In this document: piece by piece, positions 13,340-30,699 of the stretch | Layout of the letters: each line of letters begins with the position of its first letter | How positions within the stretch are numbered: position 1 is the stretch's first letter | Origin: a virus | Reading direction: 5' to 3' (one strand) | DNA: 32,407 nucleotides | IMG/VR virus record: IMGVR_UViG_3300017986_000075 | Coordinates: 1-32,407 of that record | The notes under the pieces: model-generated | Seen by the model: the letters and a program-made list of their open reading frames with translations, nothing else | Told to the model about the DNA's origin: nothing | The model's database searches: none | Position numbers and translations under genes: made by a program

Positions 13340-16300
13340 ATGATTAATTACGGATTAACACCTAAAGATAGAGAACAATTAGAATCCAAAAAGAATTTAT
13401 ATTCTGGTTTTGGAAGAGATAGTCGTGATTATATTCATTTGTATGTTTATAATAAACAAGGTACTCTTGTAGAAGATGAAATATTTCCAACAAATGTAGT
13501 TGATTTTACTGATGAAAAAACAATTAATTTAGATATTGGAACTCACTTAAGAGAACTTGGATATTCACAAGGAGAGTTTTCAGTTCAATATTTATTCCTT
13601 AGAAGAATAGCAGGTAAAGATGATACGGTTTTTATAAATGATTATGGTGAAATTCATAGAGGTAAAATACAAACTAAAGTAGTAAATGGAGTAACAAAAT
13701 ATTTCTCTACTAAAAAATTTGGTAATAGAAATTCACAAGCAGAATTAACTGAAATATTTCCAAAGGAAATGAAATATGTTTTCAAAAAAATATCTCAAGA
13801 TAGAACCGAAGTAGAAATTAATTATCAAGATATTAAGAATGGAATCTATAGAAAAAATTTAAAAGAAATAAATAGAATTATAAATTATACACCTACTAAA
13901 CTTCCTGATAATGATGCGGGAACAATTAGATTTGATTTAACAGACCCTTATGTATTAGTTGGAAACTTTGATGAAAAAGATAGAGGATTTACTGATGCGA
14001 TGGTTGGGGGTGAAATATCAATTCAAGGTATTTATGAAATCAATGGTCGTATTATTCAAGAGGAAGAAATTATATATCCTGACCCACCACCACCAGACCC
14101 AATTGATATATTGGATGTGGATTATGTAAAAAAACAAATTAAAGATAAAGTACCAACACCTTTTGTAGATATTGTTGAGGATTTTAGAGAAGAGTTACCA
14201 GAAGAAGATATAGTTTATGGTTGGGATGATTATTCAGGTGTTTGTTTTGTTGGAGATACAAAAGTAAAGTTAAGTAATAATCGTACCATATCAATCAAGA
14301 TGATGAAACCAGGTATGAAAGTTAAAACTCAACAAGGGTATGCAAAAGTATTAAAAGTAACAAAAGAAAACTTACCTTATGGAGATAAGTTTGTAAAATT
14401 TGGTAAACTCATTACAACAAATAGTCATCCAATATTTCACAAGGGTAGTTGGTATCTTGCAAGTGAACTTGGTAAAGAATTTCATGGAGAACCTACTGAT
14501 GTTTGGAATTTATTATTAGATAAACATCACACTATATATGCAGATAATGTAGTGAGTGCTACATTAAACAAATGGAAATCTGATAATAATAAATCTTGGA
14601 AAGAAAGATTTTTTGAATCAAGAAATAGATTTAAAATGTTAAGACCTGCAGGACCAATACCTGGCGGTGGTAATTACAATAGTATGGATGGGGAAAGTGG
14701 ATTTACTGATGAAGGTGGTCTTACTTATGACGCTATACCTGAGGTAAGTGGATATTCTACTCCAAAGAGTACACCTTTTGTTAGTGATAATGAAGTTGTT
14801 ATGGATAGAGTTGTTCCAACATTAACAACAAAAGAAATTGTAAAACAAATAAAGGTTTCTCGAAACACACCTCTACCAATTGTAATACCAGAGATTCGTG
14901 AAGTAGTATCTGTTGATTATAAAGCAAAAATTATTGAGGTGTTAGACCATAATAGAGTTCGTGTTAATAAATCTTGGGAAGATATGTCATTAGAGAATAA
15001 AAATATTGGTGAAGATACATCAAAAGATATTTACCAAGATTTTATGGTTCAGTATATTAAACACCAAGTTGAAAGATTAAATACATATTTAGTTGCAGAG
15101 GGAACTTATAATTTGATTACAAATATGATTCCTAATCCAGATAATCCTGAATCAAGATTTGTAAAGTTATATCAACCATTACCACCACAAATTGAAACAA
15201 TGGATTTGTGTTATTTTGTAGAAGAAAAAATGGAACCATATGTTGATTCAATTAAATTATTTGAATTTGTAGATAGTGAAGAAGAACTTTTATTTTTAAG
15301 ATTACCAGATTTTAATTCAGTAAATAATCCTGTTAATTTTAGAGGAACTAATTTTAATTCATTTAACGATTTGATAGGAACGGATACTGGTGTAAAAGAA
15401 GATGTTCAAAATTTAATTTTATCATCAAGTTTATTAGATGTACAAGTAAATGTAGATTATTCAAAACGAACAGATTCTATAGACCCATTAGTTACTGATT
15501 ATGGTTTTGGTAATTTTGTTCAGTTTGGAAGTGCAGAAAAAAGAATTAAAAACTTTAAAAAGAAATTAGATTTAATACAAACCTATACTTCACAAAGTTT
15601 AGCTTTAAACAATGTTACAGGTTCAAGTGGAACTACAAATGAATACGATAACAAAAAGAGAAGAGTTATAAATTCATTTGACCCTTATGAAAATTATCTA
15701 TATACACAAAGTGGTTCTTATGTATCGAGTTCAGTAGGTGAGTTCTATAGTGCAACTTGGCCAAAAGATAATTCATCATCACCATACATATTAACACACA
15801 CAAGTGCTTCCGCTGCTACAGATTGGTATAGTACTTGGACTGGATATGCTAAAGCGTATGATGATTTAAATCGTGAACGATTAGTAAATAACTTACCACT
15901 TCATGTTACTGCAGATACAGAAAACAATTATTTCTTGAACTTTATGGATATGATTGGACAACAATTTGATGAGATATATGTTTACTTAAGACACTTTACC
16001 GATATTAATGAAAGAGTAAGTAAATTAAGTGAGGGTATTTCAAAAGATATTGTTAGAGAAGTTGCTAAAAGTGCTGGATTCGAAGTAACAAATGGTAATG
16101 ATTTATTAATACTACCACATTATAAGTTGGGTAAGGAAACTGATGGTAGTGCTTTATATGAATCACCACAAGAAGAAGTAACAGAAGAAATATGGAAACG
16201 AATATTAGCAAATACACCATACTTTATGAAAACAAAAGGAACAAAAAGAGCTATACAAGGATTACTAAATTGTTATGGTATTCCAAGTTCTATATTAAGA

Positions 16301-18229
16301 GTTAGAGAATATGGTGGACCTGATAAAGGTACAGCGGTTAATTATGAAATAAAAAGAAAGTTCACATATGCATTAGATTTTAAATCAAGTGAGTATTTAA
16401 GATTGCCTTGGAAACAAGTAAGTAGTAAAGTACCAGAGACGGTTGAGTTTAGATTTAGAAGTCCTAAATCAAAAGACCAAACAATTGTACAGAGTGGTGA
16501 TAAGTGGGCAATCCAATTACAAGATAACGGAGCAACTGATGATTATGGTTATTTAAGATTTGCAGTTAGTGCTTCTACAGGTGTTCAATACATTACATCA
16601 TCACTACATCCATTTTATAATGATGATATGTGGAGTGTGATGTTAACCAGAGTTTCATCAAGTGGTTTAGATTTAAGTAATGATACAATCACACAAGATA
16701 TCACATATGAATTAACCACAAGACAATATGATTCCACAAGAGAAGTTGTATTATTCTCATCAAGTGAAAGTATAGATATTGATGGTAATACTGCAGCAGG
16801 TGCAGCATTTAATTCAGCATTTTCAAGTAGTGAAGATTTTTATATTGGTGGTGATGGTACAAACTTTGGAACACAATTTAGTGGTTCATTAATGGAGTTC
16901 AGATTATGGAGTGAACCATTATCACAAAGTGTATTTGAGAATCATGTTAGAGCACCAAAAACATATAATGGTAATACCACTTCATCATTTTATGATAATT
17001 TAATTTTCAGATTACCATTAGATAATAATGTTAGTTATCAAACATACACAAGTGCATCTCAAGATAAATCATATATTAAATCTTATCATACGAGTGCAAG
17101 TGCTCACAATTTTACTGGTAATAATTTTAGAAGTTTAGTAGATTTAGAACAATTAAGAGTTCCTAATTTAGGTCCTAATCGTAGAAACGCAACCAAGATT
17201 AGAATTGAAGATACAACATTAAGTGGTCCATTAGCATCTAATGTTCGTAGAGAACAATCATCACAAGATTTTGCACCTGTGGATAGTAATAAGTTAGGAG
17301 TATATTTTTCACCAACAGATATCGTGAATGAGGATATTGCATATAGTATAGCTGATTTTAACTTTGATGATTATGTTGGAGACCCAAGAGACCAATACAA
17401 AGATACTTATAGAGGGTTAGGTTCTATACAAAGAACTTATTGGAAAAAATATTCTCGTACAAATAACTTTTGGGATTACTTAAGAATTATAAATTTTTAT
17501 GATGGTGGAATTTGGCAACAAATAAGAAAGATGGTTCCAGCAAGAGCTAAATCAACATTGGGTGTGTTGATAGAACCAAATGTTTTAGAAAGAAGTAAAC
17601 AAGTAGTTGGTAAACCACCAGAGTTTGAAAATGTATATTATGAAAATGCAGGACACTTTGATTTTGGATTACAATTAAGTTCAAGGGAAACAAGTTCGAT
17701 TGGACATCCACCATTCAGTTTAAATGGTGAATATAGATTATTTGGACAAAGTAATAGTACTTATCCAACTAATGGCGTATTAAATGTACATAATAATGAA
17801 AGTGGTTCACTTGGAACTATATCATTACCATCGTTAATACGATTAAACGAAATAGACCCACGAAGTGAATATGGTAGTTTATACGCAACTGCAAGTGTTA
17901 CATTTAATGGAAGTGCTGATTCATTTACAGAAACACTTCAAACCTTTGTTAGCTCATCAAGATTAAGTGAACACAATGAAATTAAATATAAAATTTATAC
18001 GAGTTCGTTAGATGCCGTAACTGATAATCCTAATAGTTCATCATTTGAACCAGCAGAATTTCAGAGTATGGCATACGACTCAAAACTATTTAGACTTTTT
18101 TATAAAGGAAATATATTAACAAAAGATAATACGATTGATGGGGGAGAACCTGTTGAGATAACTATAACATCACCTACTAAATTGGTTACCACCGATAGTG
18201 GCGAATCAAAATTAAAAACAGATGTATAA
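13340..18229 (+). CDS. Giant baseplate protein (gp7 position) with Hint and LamG-like domains
   Basis: At 1629 aa this is the largest gene. Domains in order: an N-terminal virion-attachment region (1-240); a proline linker (PDPPPPDP, about 247-254); a Hint/intein-like domain at 302-412 beginning CFVGDTKVKL, with a TNSHPIF block (His363) and a final HTIYADNVVSATLN; a long alpha/beta region; a tail-protein-I-like motif near 950-985 (FMKTKGTKRAIQGLLNCYGI); a LamG/concanavalin-like sandwich at about 1030-1210 ending FSGSLMEFRLWSEPLS; and a Ser/Asn-rich C-terminal part. T4 places gene 7 (1032 aa) directly after gene 6, so it is probably the wedge protein with added domains. The Hint domain lacks the terminal His-Asn needed for normal splicing. 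AGGA precedes the ATG. Confidence 0.75.
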   Translation: MINYGLTPKDREQLESKKNLYSGFGRDSRDYIHLYVYNKQGTLVEDEIFPTNVVDFTDEKTINLDIGTHLRELGYSQGEFSVQYLFLRRIAGKDDTVFINDYGEIHRGKIQTKVVNGVTKYFSTKKFGNRNSQAELTEIFPKEMKYVFKKISQDRTEVEINYQDIKNGIYRKNLKEINRIINYTPTKLPDNDAGTIRFDLTDPYVLVGNFDEKDRGFTDAMVGGEISIQGIYEINGRIIQEEEIIYPDPPPPDPIDILDVDYVKKQIKDKVPTPFVDIVEDFREELPEEDIVYGWDDYSGVCFVGDTKVKLSNNRTISIKMMKPGMKVKTQQGYAKVLKVTKENLPYGDKFVKFGKLITTNSHPIFHKGSWYLASELGKEFHGEPTDVWNLLLDKHHTIYADNVVSATLNKWKSDNNKSWKERFFESRNRFKMLRPAGPIPGGGNYNSMDGESGFTDEGGLTYDAIPEVSGYSTPKSTPFVSDNEVVMDRVVPTLTTKEIVKQIKVSRNTPLPIVIPEIREVVSVDYKAKIIEVLDHNRVRVNKSWEDMSLENKNIGEDTSKDIYQDFMVQYIKHQVERLNTYLVAEGTYNLITNMIPNPDNPESRFVKLYQPLPPQIETMDLCYFVEEKMEPYVDSIKLFEFVDSEEELLFLRLPDFNSVNNPVNFRGTNFNSFNDLIGTDTGVKEDVQNLILSSSLLDVQVNVDYSKRTDSIDPLVTDYGFGNFVQFGSAEKRIKNFKKKLDLIQTYTSQSLALNNVTGSSGTTNEYDNKKRRVINSFDPYENYLYTQSGSYVSSSVGEFYSATWPKDNSSSPYILTHTSASAATDWYSTWTGYAKAYDDLNRERLVNNLPLHVTADTENNYFLNFMDMIGQQFDEIYVYLRHFTDINERVSKLSEGISKDIVREVAKSAGFEVTNGNDLLILPHYKLGKETDGSALYESPQEEVTEEIWKRILANTPYFMKTKGTKRAIQGLLNCYGIPSSILRVREYGGPDKGTAVNYEIKRKFTYALDFKSSEYLRLPWKQVSSKVPETVEFRFRSPKSKDQTIVQSGDKWAIQLQDNGATDDYGYLRFAVSASTGVQYITSSLHPFYNDDMWSVMLTRVSSSGLDLSNDTITQDITYELTTRQYDSTREVVLFSSSESIDIDGNTAAGAAFNSAFSSSEDFYIGGDGTNFGTQFSGSLMEFRLWSEPLSQSVFENHVRAPKTYNGNTTSSFYDNLIFRLPLDNNVSYQTYTSASQDKSYIKSYHTSASAHNFTGNNFRSLVDLEQLRVPNLGPNRRNATKIRIEDTTLSGPLASNVRREQSSQDFAPVDSNKLGVYFSPTDIVNEDIAYSIADFNFDDYVGDPRDQYKDTYRGLGSIQRTYWKKYSRTNNFWDYLRIINFYDGGIWQQIRKMVPARAKSTLGVLIEPNVLERSKQVVGKPPEFENVYYENAGHFDFGLQLSSRETSSIGHPPFSLNGEYRLFGQSNSTYPTNGVLNVHNNESGSLGTISLPSLIRLNEIDPRSEYGSLYATASVTFNGSADSFTETLQTFVSSSRLSEHNEIKYKIYTSSLDAVTDNPNSSSFEPAEFQSMAYDSKLFRLFYKGNILTKDNTIDGGEPVEITITSPTKLVTTDSGESKLKTDV

Positions 18230-19167: not shown

Positions 19168-20184
19168 ATGTCAGTATTTACAAGATTCGATTTTGAAAAC
19201 GATGTAGTTGAAAACCAACGAACCAAAGTATCAAGTGGATTGTTTAGTGGTGGAACAGGAACATTAAGTTCATTCTTTAGTTCATCTACTGCAGGTGCGG
19301 TAAGTGCTTCTCATGTAAGTGTTTATCACCAAAATCCTGCATCATCACCAACAACAGCAGAAATTCAGTTTGATATTGGATATGCAAATATTAATGGTAG
19401 TGGTTCAGCAGGTAACACAACAAAATTAACTACAGGTGGTAGAGAAACAGCTACAATGTATCGACAATTTAGAAACATTATATTACCACCAAACACAAAT
19501 AAATTTACTTTTACATCACACACATCAGCTTCAAATGATTTTTATTTTATATCATTTAACAGAGCTCGTATGAGAGAAAAGATTGACCCAGGTAATTGGG
19601 AATTAAAACTCGGTACTACAGGTCTTAAGTTGATTGATGATAGTGGAGCTTCAAATAATCCAACAGTCAATGAGGGTGGAAGAGTATTTAATATTGTTAG
19701 TGGTTCACTTGAGACAGGAGTTGGTGTAGTCAACACAACAGCAACTAATCAACCAGGTGGATGTTTTGGTAATTTCTATCCTGATTTAGGAATTATTATC
19801 TTAGATGCTTCTCAATTAGATGCAAGTGCATCTATGGGTACTGCAAGAAGTTCAGATACATTTGATAATAATCCAGCAAAATTCTTTCAGAGTTTATCAG
19901 ATGGTGGAAAATTCCAAGTTCGTAGAGAGGAAGAGATTAGTTCTACTAACTTCTTCTGTAGGGTAAATAATAAGAAGTATAACTTCAGTGCTAATCCTAC
20001 TTACTTTACTGGTTCAGATGGTGGATTTGTTCAAGGAACATTTTATAAAGACCCTAAAACATATATTACAACTGTAGGTCTTTATAATGATGATAATGAA
20101 TTGTTGGCAATTGCTAAATTAAGTAAACCAATATTAAAATCATACTCAAGGGAAGCTGTAATTAAGGTTAAACTCGACTTCTAA
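19168..20184 (+). CDS. Virion/fibre-type protein, first of a paralogous pair
   Basis: A 338-aa, beta-rich, Ser/Gly/Asn-rich protein without signal peptide. Its last 45 residues (TYITTVGLYNDDNELLAIAK then LSKP) match the end of the next protein, showing an old tandem duplication. Residues 1-90 are low-complexity Ser/Ala/Thr. AAGGAG precedes its start. Its position after the baseplate block and its composition suggest a virion surface component such as a fibre or tail-tip decoration. Family not recognised. Confidence 0.6.
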   Translation: MSVFTRFDFENDVVENQRTKVSSGLFSGGTGTLSSFFSSSTAGAVSASHVSVYHQNPASSPTTAEIQFDIGYANINGSGSAGNTTKLTTGGRETATMYRQFRNIILPPNTNKFTFTSHTSASNDFYFISFNRARMREKIDPGNWELKLGTTGLKLIDDSGASNNPTVNEGGRVFNIVSGSLETGVGVVNTTATNQPGGCFGNFYPDLGIIILDASQLDASASMGTARSSDTFDNNPAKFFQSLSDGGKFQVRREEEISSTNFFCRVNNKKYNFSANPTYFTGSDGGFVQGTFYKDPKTYITTVGLYNDDNELLAIAKLSKPILKSYSREAVIKVKLDF

Positions 20185-20195
20185 GGGGAATCTAA

Positions 20196-21209
20196 ATGTT
20201 AAAAAACATTGACCCATCAAATAAGTCAATTAAACCATTTGAAGTTAATAAAACTTTTCGTTTAACTAATAACGATAGTGGTAGCGGACATTATGCTTTA
20301 AAAGCCATAAGTGGTTCTGCTTATAACTTCTTATCAAGTTCAGCTGCATCTCAATCATTTGGAACATATATTCCAAGTGCAAGTGCATTCAGTTTAGGAA
20401 CATTCTATAGTTTACCAACATGGCACTCTGTAAATCAATTGTATTACAAAAGGAAATCCGACCCATTTGGTAATTTTGGTAGAAATGATTCTAATAAAAT
20501 GAATCGTGAACTTAATAGTACAGCAAGAGTATTCACAATACCAAGAAATTTATTTGGTGAAAAAATAAAACCAGGTAGTGTAAAATTAGATGTTACTATC
20601 AATGGAGTAACTTATGATTTAAGAGATGACTCTGATGGTAACATCTATGATAATACATATTCAGCAAGTTTTGCAGCATTCAAATCAAGTTCATTTGATA
20701 GAAGACAAGGTGTTCAATCTAACGGAAGTGGTTCAGAAGTTGGTAATGTTATTTATGAACATGGACAAATCATAATAACAGATACAGGTTCATATAGTGA
20801 TGCAGGAACCAATACAGGTCATAACTTAGAATACAAAGCAACTCAAACTATTTATGAACACGAATATCTTGTTGAGGTTGAACCAAATGAATTTAATAAA
20901 ACAATGAACATTAGTGCTACACTTGATAGGAGTGGTAGTTTAACTTTAGCAGAAGGTACTGTTTCTATGAGTAACTTCTTCCCACCAGGTGACCAACCAA
21001 GTGGAGCTGGAACGGGTAGTTTCAAATCATTTTACAACGCAGCTTCATCATATGAAAACTTTGCAACTCATTCAGAATTTAAACCATATTTAACTACAGT
21101 TGGTTTATATAATGATAATAATGAGTTAATGGCAATAGGAAGTTTGGCAAAACCAGTCAAATTAAATCTCGATACAACCACTACAGTTGTGGTTCGTTTT
21201 GATGTATAG
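20196..21209 (+). CDS. Virion/fibre-type protein, second of the paralogous pair
   Basis: A 337-aa paralogue of the preceding protein with the same length and the C-terminal signature YLTTVGLYNDNNELMAIGSL followed by AKP and a terminal V-x-R-F-D-V strand. Internal segments are also alike: RNLFGEKIKPGSVKLDVTING here aligns in position with ARMREKIDPGNWELKLG in its partner. It is beta-rich and Ser/Tyr-rich with no signal peptide. AGGGGAA precedes the start. It is the last gene before the second large intergenic promoter motif. Confidence 0.6.
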   Translation: MLKNIDPSNKSIKPFEVNKTFRLTNNDSGSGHYALKAISGSAYNFLSSSAASQSFGTYIPSASAFSLGTFYSLPTWHSVNQLYYKRKSDPFGNFGRNDSNKMNRELNSTARVFTIPRNLFGEKIKPGSVKLDVTINGVTYDLRDDSDGNIYDNTYSASFAAFKSSSFDRRQGVQSNGSGSEVGNVIYEHGQIIITDTGSYSDAGTNTGHNLEYKATQTIYEHEYLVEVEPNEFNKTMNISATLDRSGSLTLAEGTVSMSNFFPPGDQPSGAGTGSFKSFYNAASSYENFATHSEFKPYLTTVGLYNDNNELMAIGSLAKPVKLNLDTTTTVVVRFDV

Positions 21210-21320: not shown

Positions 21321-24197
21321 ATGAAGAGTATTTTAAATTGGCTCTTATTATTGGGTTTTGTCGGAATGGCCACTGCACAAACACCAATCATAAGGGTTAA
21401 GCAAATAGGTACATGGTCTACACCAGCAATGTGGTGGAAAGATTCGGTTACACAAGATTTAGATGATTTCTTAGCACAAGATGCAACCAAACCTGCCGAA
21501 GATAACAATAACTTTGATATTTGGAGAGATAAAGTATTGGAGATGGAAGTTACTTTGGATGATAATGGTGCAGATATCACAACATTCAGAATAGATATAG
21601 CATTTGATAACGATTTAATCACTTGGGTAGAATCAGGTGAAACAGCAGTTAACGCATGGACACAAGGAAATTCAAAAGTTATTAAAGGTTCACACATTTC
21701 AGGTCTTGTTGAAGGTGATGAAACATCAAATAACGATACAGACTATTCTTTTGAAGTAGTTTACTACGATGATGTAGGATATCAAGATTCATTAGCAGTA
21801 GGTAGTTCTGAACAATTGATAGAAGAAAGTATTGAAGATGACAGATACGATTGGTTAAGAATAACTATGGTATCACACGGAGTAGATGCGAATAATGATG
21901 GAACACCAGATGTTACTTTTGGTGATGGGGATGGTGTTCAAGCACAAGTATTAAAATTTAATTTTTTAATCAATGATGTTGTAGATGATTTTGCACCAAG
22001 AGCATTTAGAGTTGCAACTCAATACGATGGTGATGAGGGATACTACACATATGTTTCAGATGATTATCTTTTAGATTCTAAAGTTTATATTGATGGTAAT
22101 TGGGGTGATTATTATTCAGCAGAAAGAACTTATAATGGTGGTGCTCGTGGAGATATCACACTACATCCAAAACTTGTGCAACTTGAGGGATACTTAAGAT
22201 ACATTGGTGAATGGATTGATACTGATAAAGATGGAGTAAAAGATACAGGTGAAGATTTCTCACAAAACAAATATGCTATGATGAAAGTTATCTTTGAGGT
22301 AGATGAAACTAATCCAGATAATCTTTCTAATTGGAGAAACATAAGAGATATTAATTATCCATCAAGTTTAACAGATGAGTCTTTAAACGATGATGTTATG
22401 GGAACTTATGATGAGTATGGAACATTTGCACAAGGGTATCAACATATGAGATACTATGAACAAAATGCAGGAACAACATCAGACCAAAAGATTCAGAATC
22501 AAGGATTTAAAGATGTAAGTTATTGGTATTGGACATACACAGATGATAAAGGATATTTCAATATTTCTTTACCAAGAAACAATAGATATAAAGTATCGTT
22601 CTGGCCACCAGAAGCAGATGATGTGGTTGGAGACCATACCACTTATTTATTAGATAGAGATGCAATCACAAATATCAATGATGCGATTGCAGGATTTAAT
22701 TTCCAAAGTAATAAATTTGATAACGAAACAGATATTGAGATAGAATCACCAAGTGGATATTTAGTTGGTGATGTTGATGGTGATGATAAATACCAATTAA
22801 ATGATGCCTACTTCTTATGGGCATATACAAGTGGAGTGTTTGATACAGATTACACACACTACAATGGTGAAACTTATCAACAATGGTCAAGTATAGATAA
22901 TTTAAATGGAGTTGATGATTCTTATACTTACAAACAAGATTATGATGGATTCACACGAAACCAAAGAAGAGAGTTCAGTATCTTTGTTGATGGTGATTTA
23001 AATCAAGAAACTACAGAACTAACTACAGATGGTGGTGGTATTATTAGATTAAATCCATTAATGAATGATGTTGAGACTGGATTAGATGTATTAAGTATTA
23101 AAGTTGGAGCAGGTAGTTCTACATTTGGAGATGACCATAATCCTGATTATTACTTTGACCAACCAGATGGAGTAAATGGTTCTAAACAAGTAGATATTGT
23201 TGGAACTGATAATGATTCTGATATTGGATTCTACTTTACAGGTGATGTAAACCTAACAGGTGTTAAAGTTGATAACAATGGAACAGCAATTACACCAACC
23301 GTAGATGGAACAACATATTATCGTTGGGGTAATGGTTCACCGCCAGATGAGTGGGCAAGAACAATGGATAATAATAGAAGTTTAAATAAAATAATGACAG
23401 ACCACGATGTATTATTATCATTCCCACCTGATTCAACAATACGAGTTCAAAGTGGTGAGATTATAGAAGTACCATTAGAAATAACACCATCAGAAGATAT
23501 TAATATTGCAGGGTTTGAATTTGAAGTTGAGTTCAATACAGGTGAGTTAGAATTTATTGATATGAAAACTGGTAACTTACCAGGACCGTGGATGACATAT
23601 GTAAATGTAGGTGAAGTTAATCAAGAGGGATGGCAACGAGTAAGATTTGGTGGTATGGATTATTCACCAGGTAATGCACCACAAGATTATTATGTTACTG
23701 AACAAATGAATGCACTAAAGTTAATGTTTAGAGCAGATTTCCCTGAATCAGAATGGACAGAAGCTCCTATTAGATTCGTAGGTAAATATGCAGCAGGTAA
23801 TCCAAATGGTGATGATTTAAATATGAAAAGAGAAAGTGGTAAAGTAATGGTATGGAATAAGTATTGGGCATTCGGTGGTGGAGAACCATCAGGTGATGAA
23901 ATAACTTATAACTATCCAAATCCATTTAAAGAGAATACAAAATTTCAATTCTACTTAGACCAAGAAGAAAATGTTAAAATTTACATATTAAATTCTAATG
24001 GACAATACATTGGAACATTATTAAATGAAGTTGTTAGTTCAGGTTTACATACATTTGATTTCACTAACCAACCAAGTGTTTGGTTACCTGAAGTGAGTGT
24101 GTATGAGAATCACCAAACTTTAGAACCAGGTGTTTATATATTTGTTCTTGAAACAGATAATAAAATTAAAGCAAATAAATTTACGGTGGTTAAATAA
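21321..24197 (+). CDS. Secreted multidomain protein with a type IX secretion (T9SS) C-terminal sorting domain
   Basis: A 958-aa protein with a Sec signal peptide (residues 1-20, cleavage after ATAQ). The mature part is beta-rich with several acidic Asp/Asn loops. Residues 479-506 contain a dockerin-like calcium loop (GDVDGDDKYQLNDAYF). Residues 697-850 resemble a cohesin-type beta-sandwich (SGEIIEVPLEI, then IAGFEFEVEFNTGELEFIDM). Residues 864-958 form a type-A T9SS sorting domain: YPNPF at 864-868, KIYILNSNGQYIGTL, GLHTFDF, PGVYIFVLE and a final NKFTVVK. This signal sends cargo across the outer membrane in Bacteroidota and relatives. AAAGGA precedes the ATG. It is followed by a 35-aa peptide and a PorV/Q-like barrel in tight succession. 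The role in infection is unknown. Confidence 0.8.
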   Translation: MKSILNWLLLLGFVGMATAQTPIIRVKQIGTWSTPAMWWKDSVTQDLDDFLAQDATKPAEDNNNFDIWRDKVLEMEVTLDDNGADITTFRIDIAFDNDLITWVESGETAVNAWTQGNSKVIKGSHISGLVEGDETSNNDTDYSFEVVYYDDVGYQDSLAVGSSEQLIEESIEDDRYDWLRITMVSHGVDANNDGTPDVTFGDGDGVQAQVLKFNFLINDVVDDFAPRAFRVATQYDGDEGYYTYVSDDYLLDSKVYIDGNWGDYYSAERTYNGGARGDITLHPKLVQLEGYLRYIGEWIDTDKDGVKDTGEDFSQNKYAMMKVIFEVDETNPDNLSNWRNIRDINYPSSLTDESLNDDVMGTYDEYGTFAQGYQHMRYYEQNAGTTSDQKIQNQGFKDVSYWYWTYTDDKGYFNISLPRNNRYKVSFWPPEADDVVGDHTTYLLDRDAITNINDAIAGFNFQSNKFDNETDIEIESPSGYLVGDVDGDDKYQLNDAYFLWAYTSGVFDTDYTHYNGETYQQWSSIDNLNGVDDSYTYKQDYDGFTRNQRREFSIFVDGDLNQETTELTTDGGGIIRLNPLMNDVETGLDVLSIKVGAGSSTFGDDHNPDYYFDQPDGVNGSKQVDIVGTDNDSDIGFYFTGDVNLTGVKVDNNGTAITPTVDGTTYYRWGNGSPPDEWARTMDNNRSLNKIMTDHDVLLSFPPDSTIRVQSGEIIEVPLEITPSEDINIAGFEFEVEFNTGELEFIDMKTGNLPGPWMTYVNVGEVNQEGWQRVRFGGMDYSPGNAPQDYYVTEQMNALKLMFRADFPESEWTEAPIRFVGKYAAGNPNGDDLNMKRESGKVMVWNKYWAFGGGEPSGDEITYNYPNPFKENTKFQFYLDQEENVKIYILNSNGQYIGTLLNEVVSSGLHTFDFTNQPSVWLPEVSVYENHQTLEPGVYIFVLETDNKIKANKFTVVK

Positions 24198-24304
24198 TGG
24201 AAACGATAAAGTTTTTTGGATTACTATTTTTAATATTACCTTTAGGGTTTTATACTTTAAAGGGTATCGTTTGGTTATCTGAAAAATTGGAGAAGAGAAA
24301 ATGA
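24197..24304 (+). CDS. 35-aa membrane peptide
   Basis: The ATG overlaps the cargo stop (TAATG) and the stop overlaps the barrel gene start (ATGA), so it bridges the two by translational coupling. One hydrophobic span (FFGLLFLILPLGFYTL) is followed by a basic helix ending EKLEKRK. No family can be named. Its coupling suggests a helper of the cargo or the barrel, by position only. Confidence 0.6.
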   Translation: METIKFFGLLFLILPLGFYTLKGIVWLSEKLEKRK

Positions 24305-25137
24305 AAAATATATTAATAGGATTATTAATGATGGGAAGTTTGTTTGGACAAATAAATAATGTCCTTACAATTTCACCTACTGCAAGTGAAACCACTTTAG
24401 GTAATCAATCACTTGAGTTTAGAAATCCTGCAAGAAATTCTTTAGATACATTAGATTCTAAAGTAAACTTGAGTTTAACAAATGTTAAATGGTTAGGAAA
24501 CATTGTTGATGATATGGGTTTTAATTATTTAGAAGCCTCAAATAAAAAGTTTGATTATTCAATGTTGTATTTTAACTATGGTGAACAACAATATGCTGAT
24601 GAAACAGGATTTGTTCAAGGTAAGTTTACACCAAGTACTTTACTTGTTGGTACAAGTTGGGGAACTAAATTACCATTTGGACACATAGGTGTTACAGGTA
24701 AAATAGTTAATCATACTTTACATACAGAAAAGATAAATGGTGTATTAACTGATTTAGGATATTATTTAAATACAAAACACTTTGAGTTTGATGTAATGAT
24801 TTCAAACTTGGGATTATACTTTACAGAAGAAGTAGATGCTCCAACGGCATTAAATCTTGGATTAAGTAAATCTTTTCAACAAGGAGTTGATATTTATAGT
24901 CAGATAAACTTGTACGATGGTTATAATACTTTTGGACAAGGTCTATCATATAATATCAAAGGATTAATGAATGTAAATGCTGGATATTATAGTGATTCAA
25001 CACACGAATTAACTTATTCATCAGTTGGATTTGATATAAATTATGATAGATATAAATTTGGATTTGGTTATCTTTTCGGAGATGAAACACATCCATTAGG
25101 AAATACATTATTATTAACATTAAACTTGGAGATATAA
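24301..25137 (+). CDS. PorV/PorQ-like outer-membrane beta-barrel
   Basis: A 278-aa protein with a signal peptide (about 1-16, ending SLFGQ) and alternating aromatic strands throughout. The order of landmarks matches PorV/PorQ proteins of the type IX secretion system: an early FRNPARNSLD, an NYGEQQYADETGFVQGKF segment, a GTSWGTKLPFGHIGVTGKI hairpin, DLGYYL, a MISNLGLYF strand and LNLGLSKSF. It ends with a hydrophobic strand LTLNLEI. In the T9SS, PorV shuttles cargo from the SprA channel to the attachment complex, and PorQ belongs to that complex. It is shorter than cellular members (about 330-400 aa), with a reduced N-terminus. Location three codons after the sorting-domain gene supports a link. 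A different porin-like barrel cannot be excluded. Confidence 0.6.
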   Translation: MKNILIGLLMMGSLFGQINNVLTISPTASETTLGNQSLEFRNPARNSLDTLDSKVNLSLTNVKWLGNIVDDMGFNYLEASNKKFDYSMLYFNYGEQQYADETGFVQGKFTPSTLLVGTSWGTKLPFGHIGVTGKIVNHTLHTEKINGVLTDLGYYLNTKHFEFDVMISNLGLYFTEEVDAPTALNLGLSKSFQQGVDIYSQINLYDGYNTFGQGLSYNIKGLMNVNAGYYSDSTHELTYSSVGFDINYDRYKFGFGYLFGDETHPLGNTLLLTLNLEI

Positions 25138-25138
25138 A

Positions 25139-25519
25139 ATGGCAAAAGATATAGAACAGGCTATTGAAGATGTTAAAGGGAAAAAATTCGGAGTATCAAT
25201 TAACAATATTATCGCTATTGTTACTTTTCTTTCTACCGCAATTGCTGGTTGGTATAGTTTTACTGGCCGTATTGATTCGTTGGAAGAAGTAGTACAAGGA
25301 TTTGCGGAAGCAAGTGATATTGAAATTGTAACGAATAACTTTAACAATATTGATGAAGAATTAAAATATCTACGAGAAAAAGTAGATGGTTTAAAAACAC
25401 CAAAAGTAAAATCTTACGATGGGGATATAATTAAACTACAGAATGAGATTGATAAATTAAAAGGTGAAATCTCAAGATTAGAGAAATTATTAAAAGACCC
25501 ATTATCAGATTTTAAATAA
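25139..25519 (+). CDS. Single-span membrane protein with periplasmic coiled coil
   Basis: A 126-aa protein with a charged cytoplasmic N-terminus, a membrane segment at about residues 22-42 (NNIIAIVTFLSTAIAGWY), and a long coiled coil at about 85-120 (KLQNEIDKLKGEISRLEKLL). GGAG precedes the start, one base after the barrel gene stop. The topology resembles inner-membrane spanin or tether proteins that reach towards the outer membrane. No family was recognised. Confidence 0.6.
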   Translation: MAKDIEQAIEDVKGKKFGVSINNIIAIVTFLSTAIAGWYSFTGRIDSLEEVVQGFAEASDIEIVTNNFNNIDEELKYLREKVDGLKTPKVKSYDGDIIKLQNEIDKLKGEISRLEKLLKDPLSDFK

Positions 25520-25535
25520 ACCGAAAGGGTAAACA

Positions 25536-25889
25536 ATGAGTAAATTTATTAAACTACTAATTGCAGTAGTTTTGTTTAGTGTGGGTACACAATTATTTGC
25601 ACAAGACAAAGAAGTTGTAAAAGAAATTGTAGAACATAAATTGGAACAACATCAATTGATGAAGTACAAAGAATGGGAAGCAATGCACAAAAGATTTCAT
25701 ATGAAAGAGAAACGAAAAATCCAAATGGATATGAGATACAAACATATGAAACAAAGAAAACAAAAGAGAATAGTTACTCTTTTTGTTGTAGGTGGATTAT
25801 CATACTACATTGGTTATGAAATGGGTAAAGATAAACACAATGGTAAACCTGGTGGAAAGAAACCACCTATGATTTGGAGAGATAAATGA
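25536..25889 (+). CDS. Small exported basic protein
   Basis: A 117-aa protein with a signal peptide (about 1-22, ending TQLFAQ), a very basic Met/Lys/His/Arg-rich helical middle (about 45-80), and a second hydrophobic stretch at about 83-97 (RIVTLFVVGGLSYYIGYEM), then a Lys/Gly/Pro tail. It overlaps the next gene as ATGA. Function unknown; a periplasmic or membrane-associated accessory of the envelope operon is inferred from position. Confidence 0.6.
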   Translation: MSKFIKLLIAVVLFSVGTQLFAQDKEVVKEIVEHKLEQHQLMKYKEWEAMHKRFHMKEKRKIQMDMRYKHMKQRKQKRIVTLFVVGGLSYYIGYEMGKDKHNGKPGGKKPPMIWRDK

Positions 25890-26524
25890 AAAAACTATTA
25901 CTATTATCGTTAATGTTTTTTATGGGATGTGCTGCATCAGTATCAACAGAACAATATGTTGGTGAATATGAGAAACAAAAATCATTAGATGAAATCGAAA
26001 TCACTAAAGTGGATAATCTAAAAATTTTAGATGTAAAATTCAATAAAGAGATTGAAGATAGATATCCAGAACTTGCAGATAAACGAGTTGCTTTTGGTTT
26101 AAACCAAGAACTTGCAAATGTAATTTCTTTTATCGGTAGATTTAATCTTGTGGAAGCAGACAGAGATATACAATTATCAATGTTAAACGACCTAAAAGCA
26201 AACGATGCAAAAATAGAGAAAACCAAATACACTGCGTATGTAACAATATACGATTTTGCTGTGAATCTTAAAGAGGATATCAAGGCTGGTAAAGTTGAAA
26301 CAATCAACGAAACCATCGTAGGAATTCAAGTTAAGGTAATCAACAATGAAAATACTCAGTATGTAGTTGGAAGTGGACAAGGAAGAGCTTCAACAATCGG
26401 ACAAGGATTTTTAAAGAATCCTAATATGGATTGGAATCAAAGTTCTTTAAGTTCAGCATCTAACAAAGCTATGGAAACTGCGGTTGTAAATGTAATTAAA
26501 GCAATTGACCGTAGGGGTTGGTAA
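25886..26524 (+). CDS. CsgG-like outer-membrane lipoprotein
   Basis: A 212-aa lipoprotein: signal sequence with lipobox FMGC, Cys15 being the lipidated residue. The mature part follows the CsgG/curli-secretion pattern: RVAFGLNQELANVISFIGRF (short helix), KTKYTAYVTIYDFAVNL (the 'xxYxxxGxIxxF'-like strand), VGIQVKVINNENTQYVVGSG (strand, turn, strand) and a C-terminal helix SNKAMETAVVNVIKAID. CsgG forms an outer-membrane channel for curli subunits; whether this protein oligomerises is unknown. GGAG precedes the ATG. A second, less conserved relative follows two genes later. Confidence 0.55.
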   Translation: MKKLLLLSLMFFMGCAASVSTEQYVGEYEKQKSLDEIEITKVDNLKILDVKFNKEIEDRYPELADKRVAFGLNQELANVISFIGRFNLVEADRDIQLSMLNDLKANDAKIEKTKYTAYVTIYDFAVNLKEDIKAGKVETINETIVGIQVKVINNENTQYVVGSGQGRASTIGQGFLKNPNMDWNQSSLSSASNKAMETAVVNVIKAIDRRGW

Positions 26525-26529
26525 GATGA

Positions 26530-27513
26530 ATGTGGCAGAGATTATTATTAATAATACTTTTATGGGGTAGTGTCTCTGCCCAAGGCTTCCTTTATAGTTA
26601 TATAGACCCTTGTAATCAAACCATTGTTCGAGATAATTATTCACTCGAAACTCAAGATGGTGGATTCTATGTTACATATTATAACAAATCTAAATTTTTC
26701 ACTTTTGAACAATTATTAAACGGAGAGTTGGAAGCTTGGACAGAAAAAGTATTCCGAGATTTTGAAGATTTATTCCCTTGTGCAGTTAGGGTGGCAGAAG
26801 AAATACTTTCATCAGTATTGGCAAGTAACGCCACAGAACAATTCACAAAACAAGATGTAAGTAATGATGTATCTCAAGTTAATTATGGAATTAAAGCATC
26901 ACCAACCGTAGATAGTACTTGGGTAACTTCGTTTAATAGTATTTACACAAGAGAAAGTTTTGATGGTAAATCAAGATATGATGGTAATTTTAATTTTACG
27001 AGTGATTTCAGTAGATTTAGTACATCGTATGGACAGGGAATAAACTTCCTTGCCAAAAAACAAAATAGAGTGATAAGTGCATCAGGTGTTTTATTCAAAA
27101 CATTTGAAGGTCAAGATTGGTTGGTATCAACATCATATGCAAAATCACTTGTAAAGAAAAGAGGAGAAGTTATTGTTTTAACTGGAGCTTATGGAAATGT
27201 TAGTGAAAACCAATTTGGTAACCTATCAGTATTGTATGGTATGAGAATGCCAGTAGACTTACCATTTGGAAAGGTAACATTTACGAACTATATATCTTAT
27301 ACATTATTTAGATATTATAGTGGATTAAATTCAGGTAAACAATATTTATTATTGAAGAGTCCTATAATATTGATGCCTACGATTTCTTTTGACTTTCAAT
27401 TGAGTCAAGCATTTAAGATAAACTTGGGGTTCAGTATGGGATATAACACAGTTGTGAACGATTATGGGGAAAGAACTAAAACCTATTCCATAATGTTTGG
27501 AACTTACTTTTAG
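26530..27513 (+). CDS. Outer-membrane beta-barrel protein
   Basis: A 327-aa protein with signal peptide (about 1-18, ending SVSAQ), a short N-terminal globular part with two Cys (residues about 28 and 82), then from about residue 110 many amphipathic strands with aromatic ends (TSYGQGINFLAKKQNRVISA, GKVTFTNYISYTLFRYYSG). It ends with Phe in MFGTYF, a typical barrel C-terminus. It lies between the two CsgG-like genes in the envelope operon. No specific family was recognised; a transport or receptor-modifying function is possible. Confidence 0.6.
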   Translation: MWQRLLLIILLWGSVSAQGFLYSYIDPCNQTIVRDNYSLETQDGGFYVTYYNKSKFFTFEQLLNGELEAWTEKVFRDFEDLFPCAVRVAEEILSSVLASNATEQFTKQDVSNDVSQVNYGIKASPTVDSTWVTSFNSIYTRESFDGKSRYDGNFNFTSDFSRFSTSYGQGINFLAKKQNRVISASGVLFKTFEGQDWLVSTSYAKSLVKKRGEVIVLTGAYGNVSENQFGNLSVLYGMRMPVDLPFGKVTFTNYISYTLFRYYSGLNSGKQYLLLKSPIILMPTISFDFQLSQAFKINLGFSMGYNTVVNDYGERTKTYSIMFGTYF

Positions 27514-27522
27514 GAGAAGAAA

Positions 27523-28050
27523 ATGAGATTAGCAATAAAATTTGTTTTAGGATTTTTGATGGGTACGATTATTACTGCACAATCTTTACCACAACCATCA
27601 GTTGTTGGAAAAGATGTAGAATTTCCTACAATAAAAATATCAGAGTTTGTTAAGGTGGATGAATCGATTGGTATTGTGGATAATAGAGTAACTTTAGGTG
27701 TGAAACAATTACTTGAAGAAGAATTCCAAAATACAAGATATAGATTAACAGATGATGATAATGCTGATTATACTGCAAATGTAGAGATTCTATATATTGG
27801 TAAACCAAATACTGCATTTAGTATTGCTGGTTTATTCAATCGTAGAAATCAAGAAACAGAAGTTAGATTGTTAGTAAACTTGGTACAAAACAAAGAGGGT
27901 ACACAAAGAAGTTATCGTGGTATTGGTGAAACAACCACACAAGTATCTGCTGCAGGTTTACAAATTCAAGAAGATGTAGAATTTGGTAGAAGTGAATTAG
28001 GTTCATCTTTGAGAAAAGCAATAGTTGATGCATTACAAAATGTTGAGTAA
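27523..28050 (+). CDS. Second CsgG-like periplasmic/outer-membrane protein
   Basis: A 175-aa protein with signal peptide (about 1-20, ending ITAQ) and no lipobox. The mature part resembles the CsgG-like lipoprotein three genes upstream in layout: IKISEFVKVDESIGIVDNRV, a short helix KQLLEEEFQNTRY, DYTANVEILYIGK (strand), TEVRLLVNLVQNKEGTQRSY with RGIGE (paired strands and turn), and a closing helix SSLRKAIVDALQNV. It may be a partner or paralogue of the lipoprotein. AGGAG precedes its start. Assignment rests on pattern only. Confidence 0.5.
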   Translation: MRLAIKFVLGFLMGTIITAQSLPQPSVVGKDVEFPTIKISEFVKVDESIGIVDNRVTLGVKQLLEEEFQNTRYRLTDDDNADYTANVEILYIGKPNTAFSIAGLFNRRNQETEVRLLVNLVQNKEGTQRSYRGIGETTTQVSAAGLQIQEDVEFGRSELGSSLRKAIVDALQNVE

Positions 28051-28086
28051 TGTTTTTTTGAAATATTATAAGTAAGGAGTTACACA

Positions 28087-28812
28087 ATGAATAGAGAATT
28101 TTTAATTGGTGCAATTCTAAATATAGTTTTTGTTTTAGTAGTAGTGGGAACACGATATTATTATGCAAAACAAGAAATGGATTTTCTTATCGAGGATTCA
28201 GCAAGACAAGATGTTTTGATTGAAGAATTAAGAGATTCTGTAGATGTATTAAAAGTACAGAATGATGAGATACTTACTGATTTACATGACCACAACAAAA
28301 CTCGTGGATATGAGAATCAAAAATTAAAAGAACAAATGAGTGAGTTCCAAGTAGAATTAGATACTATAAAAGAACGACTTTCTAAAAAAGTATCTATTTA
28401 TGATAGAGGAACAACCACAAGTGGAACAGGTATAATTCCATTTGAAAAAGAATTTGGTAGACAAGATGATTACCTACGAATCTTTGGTAGAAGTGGTGTT
28501 GCTATTGAGAACGATAGCATTGTAGATTACGAAACCAATTTAGGATTCGATGGTAGTTTAGAACAAGGTGAACCTTTTATAGAAGAAGGTGAAGTTAAAG
28601 GTGAATGGTATGCAATCGTACCTGAAAGACAATTTGATGGTTTACGATTAGGTAGTAGAAGAAGTAAACCATTCAGTATTAAACCACCACGAAACCAAAT
28701 TAGTGTTGGACCGTTTTTTGGAATCACATATGACCAAACTACAGGTTTAACTGAACCCGTTGTAGGATTTGGAATTACTTATAACGCGTTCAAAATATGG
28801 GATTGGAGATAA
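28087..28812 (+). CDS. Membrane-anchored coiled-coil protein with C-terminal beta domain
   Basis: A 241-aa protein. An N-terminal membrane span (about residues 7-24, GAILNIVFVLVVVGTRYY) is followed by a coiled coil to about residue 100 (LKEQMSEFQVELDTIKERL), a Gly/Asp/Glu-rich linker, and a final 45 residues (ISVGPFFGITYDQ then VVGFGITYNAFKIW) with the look of a small beta hairpin pair. This span-coil-barrel-like end is reminiscent of proteins near lysis genes of Bacteroidota phages, so a spanin-like role is possible. AAGGAG precedes the ATG; it overlaps the following 28-aa frame. Confidence 0.6.
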   Translation: MNREFLIGAILNIVFVLVVVGTRYYYAKQEMDFLIEDSARQDVLIEELRDSVDVLKVQNDEILTDLHDHNKTRGYENQKLKEQMSEFQVELDTIKERLSKKVSIYDRGTTTSGTGIIPFEKEFGRQDDYLRIFGRSGVAIENDSIVDYETNLGFDGSLEQGEPFIEEGEVKGEWYAIVPERQFDGLRLGSRRSKPFSIKPPRNQISVGPFFGITYDQTTGLTEPVVGFGITYNAFKIWDWR

Positions 28813-28898
28813 TGGAATATATAATATTAGGATTTTGTACATTAATGGTAGTGGCATTTGTACAAGTTCAAATGTGGAAAGATAAAGATGCCAAATAG
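28812..28898 (+). CDS. 28-aa membrane peptide
   Basis: The ATG overlaps the preceding stop (TAATG). One hydrophobic span (YIILGFCTLMVVAFVQVQMW) is followed by a charged tail KDKDAK. It overlaps the next basic gene by 11 bases. Its tight overlaps on both sides favour a real gene over chance. Confidence 0.5.
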   Translation: MEYIILGFCTLMVVAFVQVQMWKDKDAK

Positions 28899-29034: not shown

Positions 29035-29690
29035 TGATTAAATTAAAAGATTTATTAGTAGAGAATCCAGTTAGTACGGTAAATCCACCAAGAAATCTTG
29101 GTAAGGAAACAGAATACGGACACTTAAATTTTGGATTTCATTTAAAACCAGTAGCAAAGGCAGTTGATGATATTTATAAATTGTGTCGAAAAATAGATAT
29201 CGTTTCAACAGATTTTGATGATAGAGATTTATTAAAACCATTTCATCATTTAGGTTCTTGGGAAGATGAAAAGATTAAAGAACCAATCTTAACTTCTGTT
29301 AAGAAATTAGATAAGGCACTAAAAAGTCCTGAAAAAAACTTTGCAGAACCAAAAAGAGTAATTCGTGCGTTACCAGGTGGAAAATCATTTTTAAAACAAT
29401 TTATGAGTAAATTTAAAACTTTATCTTCTTACATAAAAAACTTTGATAAATTCAAAGACCAAAAAATATCAAAAGTAATTCCAAACACCAAAGGAACAGA
29501 AGTTGCTAATAAAAAAGTAGGTGATTATGTTCAATTCACCACTCTTGATTATTTAGATGATATCACTAAATTAGTAACTGGTCAAAGTGGATTTGAAATG
29601 AATAGAATGAGTGATATTGTTAGTGATTTAGCATATAAAACAAAAGGTAATAGAGCTAAAGTTCAAATAACTGCTAAAACACCAAAATGA
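29034..29690 (+). CDS. 218-aa protein with candidate capsid-targeting leader
   Basis: I place the start at ATG 29034, preceded by GGGGAAG, rather than the in-frame TTG at 29022. The N-terminus MIKLKDLLVE resembles the capsid-targeting leader of T4 internal head proteins (MKTYQEFIAE), with LVE fitting the (L/I)xE cleavage pattern of the T4 prohead protease. The rest is Lys-rich and helical with no enzymatic motif. The next two proteins begin with related leaders. It overlaps the following gene as ATGA. Could be an internal head protein; unproven. Confidence 0.55.
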   Translation: MIKLKDLLVENPVSTVNPPRNLGKETEYGHLNFGFHLKPVAKAVDDIYKLCRKIDIVSTDFDDRDLLKPFHHLGSWEDEKIKEPILTSVKKLDKALKSPEKNFAEPKRVIRALPGGKSFLKQFMSKFKTLSSYIKNFDKFKDQKISKVIPNTKGTEVANKKVGDYVQFTTLDYLDDITKLVTGQSGFEMNRMSDIVSDLAYKTKGNRAKVQITAKTPK

Positions 29691-30310
29691 TTAAGTTAAA
29701 AGAATTACTAACACTTCGTGGAATGGTTTACTCTGAAGAGATAAAACCAAAACACAAAAAGAAGATTGAAATGAAAACTTCTCTATGGGATGAGAATATA
29801 GTTATACCAAAAATAACACCACCTGAAAATGACTCATCTAAAACACTAAAGGAAGTAAAGTATTTATCAAAGATAAAACCAAATAATGAGTTTGCAGAAT
29901 CTGGTGATGATGTAAAAGAAAACTTTATGCCACTAATTGAAAAAAATGGTTTAAATGTTACTAAAGAATTTTTATCTAAAATAATTAAAGAAAGTTCTAA
30001 ATTTATTATGGAACTTAAATATCATTATAATCGTCCAAGACCATATCAGATTGCAGAGTTTTATGATATTGATTTAAATGGTACTACATTAAATAGTATG
30101 AAAACACCATCGTTCCCAAGTGGACATGCAGTTCAAGGTTATTTAATTGGTGAGTATTTATCATTTAAAGACCCAAGAATGGCACACGAATATAAACAAG
30201 CAGGAGAAGATATAGCTCAATCAAGAATTGTTGCAAAAGCACATTATCCGAGTGATAAAGAATATGGTAAAATTGTTGCAAGAGCGTTATTTAGAGGTAT
30301 GAAAAGATGA
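29687..30310 (+). CDS. PAP2/class A acid phosphatase-like protein
   Basis: A 207-aa protein with all three PAP2-superfamily phosphatase motifs: K-x6-R-P at Lys111 to Arg118-Pro119, PSGH at 144-147, and S-R-x5-H-x3-D at Ser179-Arg180, His186 and Asp190. The catalytic His186 and Asp190 are intact. There is no signal peptide or membrane span; instead it begins MIKLKELLTL, nearly the same leader as the protein before it. The 60 residues after the leader are Lys/Pro-rich. Substrates could be phospholipid, sugar or nucleotide phosphates. If the leader directs packaging, the enzyme would be delivered with the DNA. Confidence 0.75.
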   Translation: MIKLKELLTLRGMVYSEEIKPKHKKKIEMKTSLWDENIVIPKITPPENDSSKTLKEVKYLSKIKPNNEFAESGDDVKENFMPLIEKNGLNVTKEFLSKIIKESSKFIMELKYHYNRPRPYQIAEFYDIDLNGTTLNSMKTPSFPSGHAVQGYLIGEYLSFKDPRMAHEYKQAGEDIAQSRIVAKAHYPSDKEYGKIVARALFRGMKR

Positions 30311-30699
30311 CATCTCTAAAAGAGATTTTTTTATTACAAGAAAGAACTGATTTATTATTTGTAGCATCTGAATTAGTAAAACACTATAATTTAAAATCTA
30401 AAGTGAAGTTTGGTACATTTGGTAAAGATAAAGGTGGTTACAATTGGGATACTGATACAATAATGTTAAATAAGTATTACCCAAAAGTTTCTGAGTTTAT
30501 TATTACCGTATTACATGAGATTCATCATGCTATTCAAATTGATAAATATGGTAGAAAAAAGTTTATGAAAAAATATAATCAGGCATCTAATATGGCTCAA
30601 TTAGATGGTAAAGATAGATATTTTGCAAATAAATGGGAAAGAAAAGCAGAAAATTGGGCAAAACAAGAATATAGAAGAAAATGGAAAAATAATTTTTAA
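30307..30699 (+). CDS. HExxH metalloprotease-like protein
   Basis: A 130-aa protein with a zinc-protease helix HEIHH at residues 70-74 (VLHEIHHAIQID) after a beta region (TIMLNKYYPKVSEFIITVL). A candidate third ligand lies in the WERKAENWA helix near 109-117. The layout resembles small SprT- or ImmA/IrrE-like metalloproteases. Its N-terminus MTSLKEIFLLQE resembles the two preceding leaders, with LQE as a possible cleavage site. It overlaps the phosphatase stop as ATGA. The target protein is unknown. Confidence 0.6.
   Translation: MTSLKEIFLLQERTDLLFVASELVKHYNLKSKVKFGTFGKDKGGYNWDTDTIMLNKYYPKVSEFIITVLHEIHHAIQIDKYGRKKFMKKYNQASNMAQLDGKDRYFANKWERKAENWAKQEYRRKWKNNF

Follow-up and report, generated by a model that had tools for sequence, protein, structure and literature searches.

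A candidate type IX secretion client and PorV/PorQ-type partner encoded in an envelope module of marine T4-like phages

The gene at 21321-24197 (plus strand) of IMG/VR record IMGVR_UViG_3300017986_000075, the 32,407 bases of which are the window analyzed here, encodes a 958-amino-acid protein that carries both ends of a client of the type IX secretion system (T9SS) and stands first in a fixed phage module, with the gene for a PorV/PorQ-family outer-membrane barrel next to it. The PorV/PorQ family is the T9SS shuttle family. We propose, with a probability of about 0.55, that this protein (the cargo) and the barrel are a phage T9SS client and its own PorV/PorQ-type partner, carried by a lineage of marine T4-like phages in an envelope module of eight genes. 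The parts of this sequence-based reading differ in strength: export of the cargo through T9SS is quite probable, and it is somewhat likely that the barrel is the cognate partner of the cargo. Phage-encoded secretion-system clients are rare; if the reading is right, these phages, a widespread marine group, would remodel the host surface in a novel manner, by a client fixed together with its own shuttle-type barrel.

The cargo open reading frame, which begins with ATG, was verified. Judged by eye and by hydropathy, its N-terminus, MKSILNWLLLLGFVGMATAQ followed by TP, has the classic form of a Sec signal peptide (residues 1-20); among cargo relatives, the layout ending in xQ is kept while the residues drift to ∼40% identity. 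At the other end (residues 865-958), a profile search matched the type A sorting family TIGR04183 at residues 865-956 with 29 bits (E = 7.5e-7), above the curated cutoff of 23 bits, whereas PF18962 scored 20.1 bits, under its curated cutoff of 27. TIGR04183 also matched all 13 full-length or near-full-length relatives (best E = 2.8e-9), and nearly every one of 52 distinct complete relatives has a [YF]PNP[FY] motif (YPNPF in 38, YPNPY or FPNPF in the other printed copies). The sorting domain is thus not a chance match. Both a Sec signal peptide and a type A sorting domain had been put forward in the original prediction, made from the sequence alone, and both are borne out, with two amendments: YPNPF starts at residue 865, not 864, and, of the two families suggested for searching the C-terminus, TIGR04183 alone exceeded its cutoff. 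The two ends of a T9SS client are retained across the cargo family.

Between these ends lies a long, multidomain body with a conserved N-terminal part; the mean column identity in the alignment is 68%, with invariant loops. dN/dS values between close copies are 0.14 to 0.26, and the cargo is under purifying selection. A calcium-loop motif, GDVDGDDxxxLND at residues 483-495, is invariant in the alignment, and DxDxD...ND occurs in 52/52 distinct copies as printed. This loop looks dockerin-like, by likeness rather than by family membership: a Pfam search of the cargo gave no dockerin match, and the loop is single, not one of a pair of calcium loops. A cohesin domain follows at residues ∼695-850, where PF00963 scores 25.4 bits against a cutoff of 24.1 and Foldseek returns cohesins at a probability of 1.00, with TM scores (target) up to 0.77; the AlphaFold model of the cargo has a pLDDT of 37, and its cohesin part alone is interpretable.

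The genomic setting is that of a phage. Upstream genes in the window match T4-type baseplate wedge families in profile searches, and two tail proteins (19168-20184 and 20196-21209, both plus strand) are encoded directly upstream of the cargo. A DnaG-type phage primase (31227-32150, plus strand; phrog_47, E = 1.6e-36) forms the right border of the region. Scans of viral contigs for the cargo found 37 loci and later 96 matching stretches; in 69 of 73 distinct contigs, the cargo gene comes immediately after one and the same tail gene. Two contigs of this phage group carry a T4-type gp23 capsid gene (E about 1e-78); judged by this gp23-type capsid and by the T4-type baseplate families in the window, the group is T4-like. 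When the cargo body was searched without its sorting domain among 297 sampled Bacteroidota genomes, its sole relative was on a phage contig in one bin. We give practically no credence to an assembly artefact or host fragment, for which nothing speaks beyond the unusual domain content and which is refuted by the synteny, the gp23 genes on two contigs of the group, and the restriction of cargo-body relatives in Bacteroidota to a phage contig. A join of phage and host DNA at 21.2 or 28 kb is excluded by the same gene order in dozens of independent contigs. The earlier view of a phage gene placed between tail genes and the primase, not on a host contig, was therefore correct, and the syntenic copies that it led one to look for in related phage contigs do exist.

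Among the isolated phages in INPHARED, we found no relatives of the cargo, the barrel, or the protein encoded at 26530. The two nearest isolated relatives, Mel-JY01 (a Microcystis phage) and immuto (a Flavobacterium phage), have a homologous baseplate/tail module, with 40 to 48% identity in the wedge protein and homologues of the 19168-21209 tail proteins in the same place, but they lack the envelope module. Fibre-like and other genes lie between their tail genes and primase instead, and in immuto the slot after the tail genes holds tail fibre and spike genes. In the window, a 1,629-amino-acid tail protein (13340-18229) has a Hint domain of the intein/hedgehog type at residues 301-411 (PF14623, E = 7e-18). 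The domain comes and goes, occurring in 26 of the 75 loci that encode this tail protein, and a Hint-bearing tail protein may possibly process itself. Other window genes encode a PLP-dependent enzyme (1944-2714), a TET-associated glycosyltransferase (3846-4721), which hints at hypermodified DNA, a PAP2 phosphatase (29687-30310), and a DUF6782-like metallopeptidase (30307-30699). An 83-kb relative contig (L234) has, near its fibre genes, a long run of genes that by eye are epimerase, SGNH-hydrolase-like, and other surface-glycan-like genes.

The putative cognate shuttle or anchor of the cargo is a 278-amino-acid outer-membrane barrel with a signal peptide, encoded at 24301-25137 (plus strand). 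NF033709 scores 80.5 bits on it (E = 1.6e-22; cutoff 90) and matches 10/10 barrel relatives, several of them over the cutoff; among 11 virus records with an NF033709 match, 7 reach 90, some only with in-frame neighbours. A profile of the phage barrels matches the PorV chain of the SprA complex in PDB 6h3i (E = 1.9e-13). The PorV equivalog NF033710 gave 42.4 bits on the window barrel against a cutoff of 250, and the PorQ equivalog NF033711 gave 49.5 against 220; since the NF033710 cutoff is missed, we call the barrel PorV-like, not PorV. In a maximum-likelihood tree with long branches, which leave the sister group uncertain, the phage barrels group together as a single clade (support 96/96), separate from the sampled PorV and PorQ-like proteins (marine Flavobacteriales family). 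Scanning the viral contigs for barrels gave 0 matches with a single-sequence query and 45 with an alignment-based one.

The barrel gene is next to the cargo gene in 39/39 distinct cases with enough downstream sequence (119/119 by locus). In the window, a gene for a 35-amino-acid single-pass membrane miniprotein, METIKFFGLLFLILPLGFYTLKGIVWLSEKLEKRK (24197-24304, plus strand), sits between the two, overlapping the cargo stop (TAATG) and the barrel start (ATGA); it is present in some relatives and absent in others. The original prediction had the cargo use the host T9SS as a gene standing alone. The client signals agree with the first part, but the gene does not stand alone: it is the first of a fixed module in which the barrel comes next. 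From these sequences, it looks as if the phage supplies an outer-membrane partner of its own instead of merely borrowing the host system. In a few cellular Bacteroidota genomes, PorV-family genes adjoin genes with sorting-domain-like C-termini; these neighbours are a possible model for the phage pair, in too few genomes for a statistic.

To relate the divergence of the cargo to that of its surroundings, we compared pairwise distances of cargo segments and neighbour genes over 27 distinct loci. Windows within residues 1-680 correlate with the barrel at r = 0.36 to 0.64, and often about equally with the tail genes. From residue ∼690 to 958, the stretch of the cohesin and the sorting domain, the correlation with the barrel is 0.77 to 0.89, while that with the tail genes is ≤0.5; the partial correlation of the sorting domain and the barrel, given the tail genes, is 0.75. 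The switch at ∼690 coincides with the start of the cohesin. Thus, the cohesin and the sorting domain move together with the barrel and the other module genes, and the body is exchanged more independently. Genes further downstream correlate with the cargo as strongly as the barrel does. Physical linkage alone can produce the cargo-barrel correlation; coadaptation of the sorting domain and the barrel would produce it too.

The module extends over 21321-28812. Each of its genes encodes a signal peptide or membrane segment by hydropathy, a feature that hardly any other window gene has, and wherever 6 kb downstream of the cargo was available, the six module genes tested were all present (24/24 distinct, 83/83 by locus). 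T4-type late promoters (TATAAATA) showed no pattern at the module. After the barrel comes a coiled-coil protein (25139-25519, plus strand) that by hydropathy is anchored in the inner membrane, with a predicted holin/spanin-like layout; it is kept in 24/24 distinct modules. The small, basic, fast-evolving protein encoded at 25536-25889 (plus strand) is secreted, judging from a signal peptide found by hydropathy. Its relatives are 31 to 45% identical where found, and a homologue was not detected in every relative.

The product of 25886-26524 (plus strand) is a lipoprotein with a nearly invariant lipobox cysteine, Cys15, and a predicted CsgG/PelC-type fold: Foldseek returns PelC and CsgG at a probability of 1.00, on a low-confidence model (pLDDT 47), and the conserved C-terminus resembles CsgG by eye. 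The lipoprotein had no match in Pfam or PDB profile searches, and CsgG profiles do not reach it. A curli pore (CsgG/CsgF) identity for the module, suggested by eye and fold with negative profiles, was rejected. Next are two secreted proteins. One (26530-27513, plus strand) has two conserved cysteines in its N-terminal domain and a strand-rich C-terminal part that ends in F and by eye is likely an outer-membrane barrel; a PDB profile search gave no match for this protein. The other (27523-28050, plus strand) is weakly like Lipoprotein_16 (E of 0.01 at best, in 3/8 members). The last gene (28087-28812, plus strand) encodes a coiled coil that is anchored in the inner membrane, carries a conserved strand motif at its C-terminus, and weakly matches an Rz-like spanin family (phrog_9841, E = 7.5e-4). 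Its stop is overlapped by a 28-amino-acid membrane miniprotein, MEYIILGFCTLMVVAFVQVQMWKDKDAK (28812-28898), and similar miniproteins occur in two other contigs.

Phage use of the host T9SS, called unusual in the original prediction, is indeed so but not unprecedented. Cryophage (Bellas et al. 2020; PMC7468147) encodes proteins that bear type A sorting domains of the T9SS and have been proposed to rely on the host system, and one BACON gene of a gut phage cluster carries a T9SS sorting domain (PMC6949934). In the parts of the Cryophage report consulted, the cargos (endoglucanase, GH39, PA14) form variable islands and no PorV-type partner is described (PMC7468147), whereas the present cargo is single, conserved, and core, always paired with a barrel in a fixed T4-like module. 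The BACON gut phages, mentioned in passing in their source, have T9SS domains near phage structural genes, as here, but the phages and the domains differ (PMC6949934). Cellular counterparts that join a client to a cognate barrel are PorZ-PorQ and the pairs of type B clients with PorP/SprF, the latter usually side by side (PMC10202324, PMC12618676); in contrast, the phage client is of type A, and the phage barrel belongs to a separate phage clade. Among marine T4-like phages, pelagimyophages and Melnitz carry csgGF, an outer-membrane secretion-related cluster with a lipoprotein of CsgG-type fold (PMC7029224, PMC9004378), but the present module has no recognizable CsgG/CsgF family membership and has T9SS features instead. 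A search of the open-licence literature turned up neither a phage-encoded barrel of the PorV family nor a pairing of cargo and barrel in a phage. Thus, single phage T9SS cargos are already known, and the pairing of a cargo with its own PorV-type partner, of which we found no report, is apparently new.

In the working that we propose, the cargo would cross the inner membrane by Sec, as its signal peptide suggests. The host T9SS would recognize the type A sorting domain, and the cargo would cross the outer membrane via the host SprA/Sov translocon; no translocon gene was seen in the 32,407-base window. In Bacteroidota, PorV acts as the carrier that brings type A clients from the SprA translocon to an attachment complex; PorQ holds PorZ, which retains its sorting domain, and type B clients depend on private barrels of the PorP/SprF type (PMC10202324, PMC12618676). 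By analogy with PorQ holding PorZ and PorP/SprF-type barrels holding type B clients, the phage barrel would take the sorting domain from the translocon and hold the cargo, uncleaved, at the surface, as its family, the fixed adjacency of the two genes, and their shared divergence suggest. The exposed cohesin and dockerin-like modules might then stick copies together or to surface ligands, so that infected cells would wear a coat specified by the phage. Speculatively, this coat could keep further phages from adsorbing, or progeny from adsorbing to cells that are infected already. A blocking coat is our preferred function for the cargo, held tentatively. It is more doubtful that the full scheme applies, in which a lytic phage lineage would extend the host T9SS with a client, a dedicated PorV-class shuttle/anchor, and accessory envelope proteins, and build a cohesin/dockerin-like coat that alters the interactions of the cell with phages and other cells. 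Counting against the client-partner reading, host PorV is believed to handle every type A client (PMC12618676), which makes a private phage barrel not strictly necessary. Further points against it are the score of the window barrel under the NF033709 cutoff, the possible origin of the cargo-barrel correlation in linkage, the lack of a Pfam match for the dockerin-like loop, and the difference in Shine-Dalgarno use between the phages and a Flavobacteriales bin described below.

The module could instead serve lysis or egress, with the coiled-coil membrane proteins, the CsgG/PelC-like lipoprotein, and the barrel breaching the outer membrane late in infection while the cargo loosens the surface layer. 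The CsgG/PelC-type fold and weak spanin-family matches of two module proteins (28087-28812 and 25886-26524) point this way, as do phage curli-pore genes, which are common in pelagimyophages (PMC7029224) and were proposed to regulate lysis in the case of CsgGF of methylophage Melnitz (PMC9004378). Such a role leaves the conserved sorting domain and PorV-type barrel unexplained, and the CsgG-like protein, missed by the CsgG profiles, has on our reading of the alignment little sequence room for pore hairpins; we consider it unlikely. It is improbable that the cargo is an auxiliary enzyme or adhesin, released by way of the host PorV to degrade or bind polysaccharide, feeding or loosening the host matrix. 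Cryophage T9SS cargos include glycoside hydrolases (PMC7468147), and residues 393-431 of the cargo have weak similarity, under the cutoff, to fn3_3, the polysaccharide lyase family 4 domain II (E of 0.0016), but Pfam profile searches found no catalytic domain in the cargo, and a fixed barrel of its own (39/39) would be needless for a released enzyme.

The pair might also take over the T9SS, the barrel competing with host PorV and the cargo occupying the translocon, so that host surface adhesins that act as phage receptors or as gliding machinery are shut down. The constant pairing of barrel and cargo would fit, as would the binding of PorV to SprA in 6h3i, the structure matched by the phage barrel profile; a long, conserved multidomain body, however, exceeds the needs of a plug, and we regard a takeover as improbable too. 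Least credible among the functional alternatives is a virion structural protein, in which case the cargo would be an adhesin of the tail and its secretion-like ends would serve some other purpose. Its position right after the tail genes, in the slot that holds tail fibre and spike genes in immuto, would suit an adhesin, but the signal peptide and sorting domain are kept across the family, and a protein bound for the periplasm cannot join virion assembly in the cytoplasm. Very large fibre-like genes elsewhere in cargo-bearing relatives also speak against a virion protein and led us to reject the cargo as a replacement of the tail fibres.

If the client-partner reading is true, T9SS targeting could be dissected with the cargo and barrel as a natural, minimal cognate pair, and the pair would mark phages without a cultured host that infect T9SS-bearing marine bacteria. 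It also raises a testable question: do PorV-family barrels choose clients and decide between release and retention?

The host would carry a T9SS if the export reading is right. A Flavobacteriales bin, NAT55, holds two contigs of this phage group and has 42 sorting-domain matches, including one on C68, a phage contig of the bin. We did not accept a Flavobacteriales host on the strength of this bin, because the phages use Shine-Dalgarno sequences strongly and the bin does not: they precede 0/39 sampled NAT55 genes and, in larger samples, about 33 to 67% of genes in the phage group; the value for immuto is 3%. Taken over the window and its relatives, the share is about 65%, which offers a clue to the host. 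Bacteroidetes have been reported to be without Shine-Dalgarno sequences (PMC6847099). A tRNA-Ala gene on a relative contig was rejected as a host link, its best match being the second phage contig of NAT55 and not a host gene. Other T9SS-bearing lineages are plausible hosts, such as Marinimicrobia (SAR406), for which as many as 24 Por-sorting proteins in one genome are reported (PMC5596340). The 82-kb relative contig L238 encodes, at 12959-13300, a tmRNA with an unusual tag, GTQANLTYAYA, as well as tRNA-Ala and tRNA-Cys.
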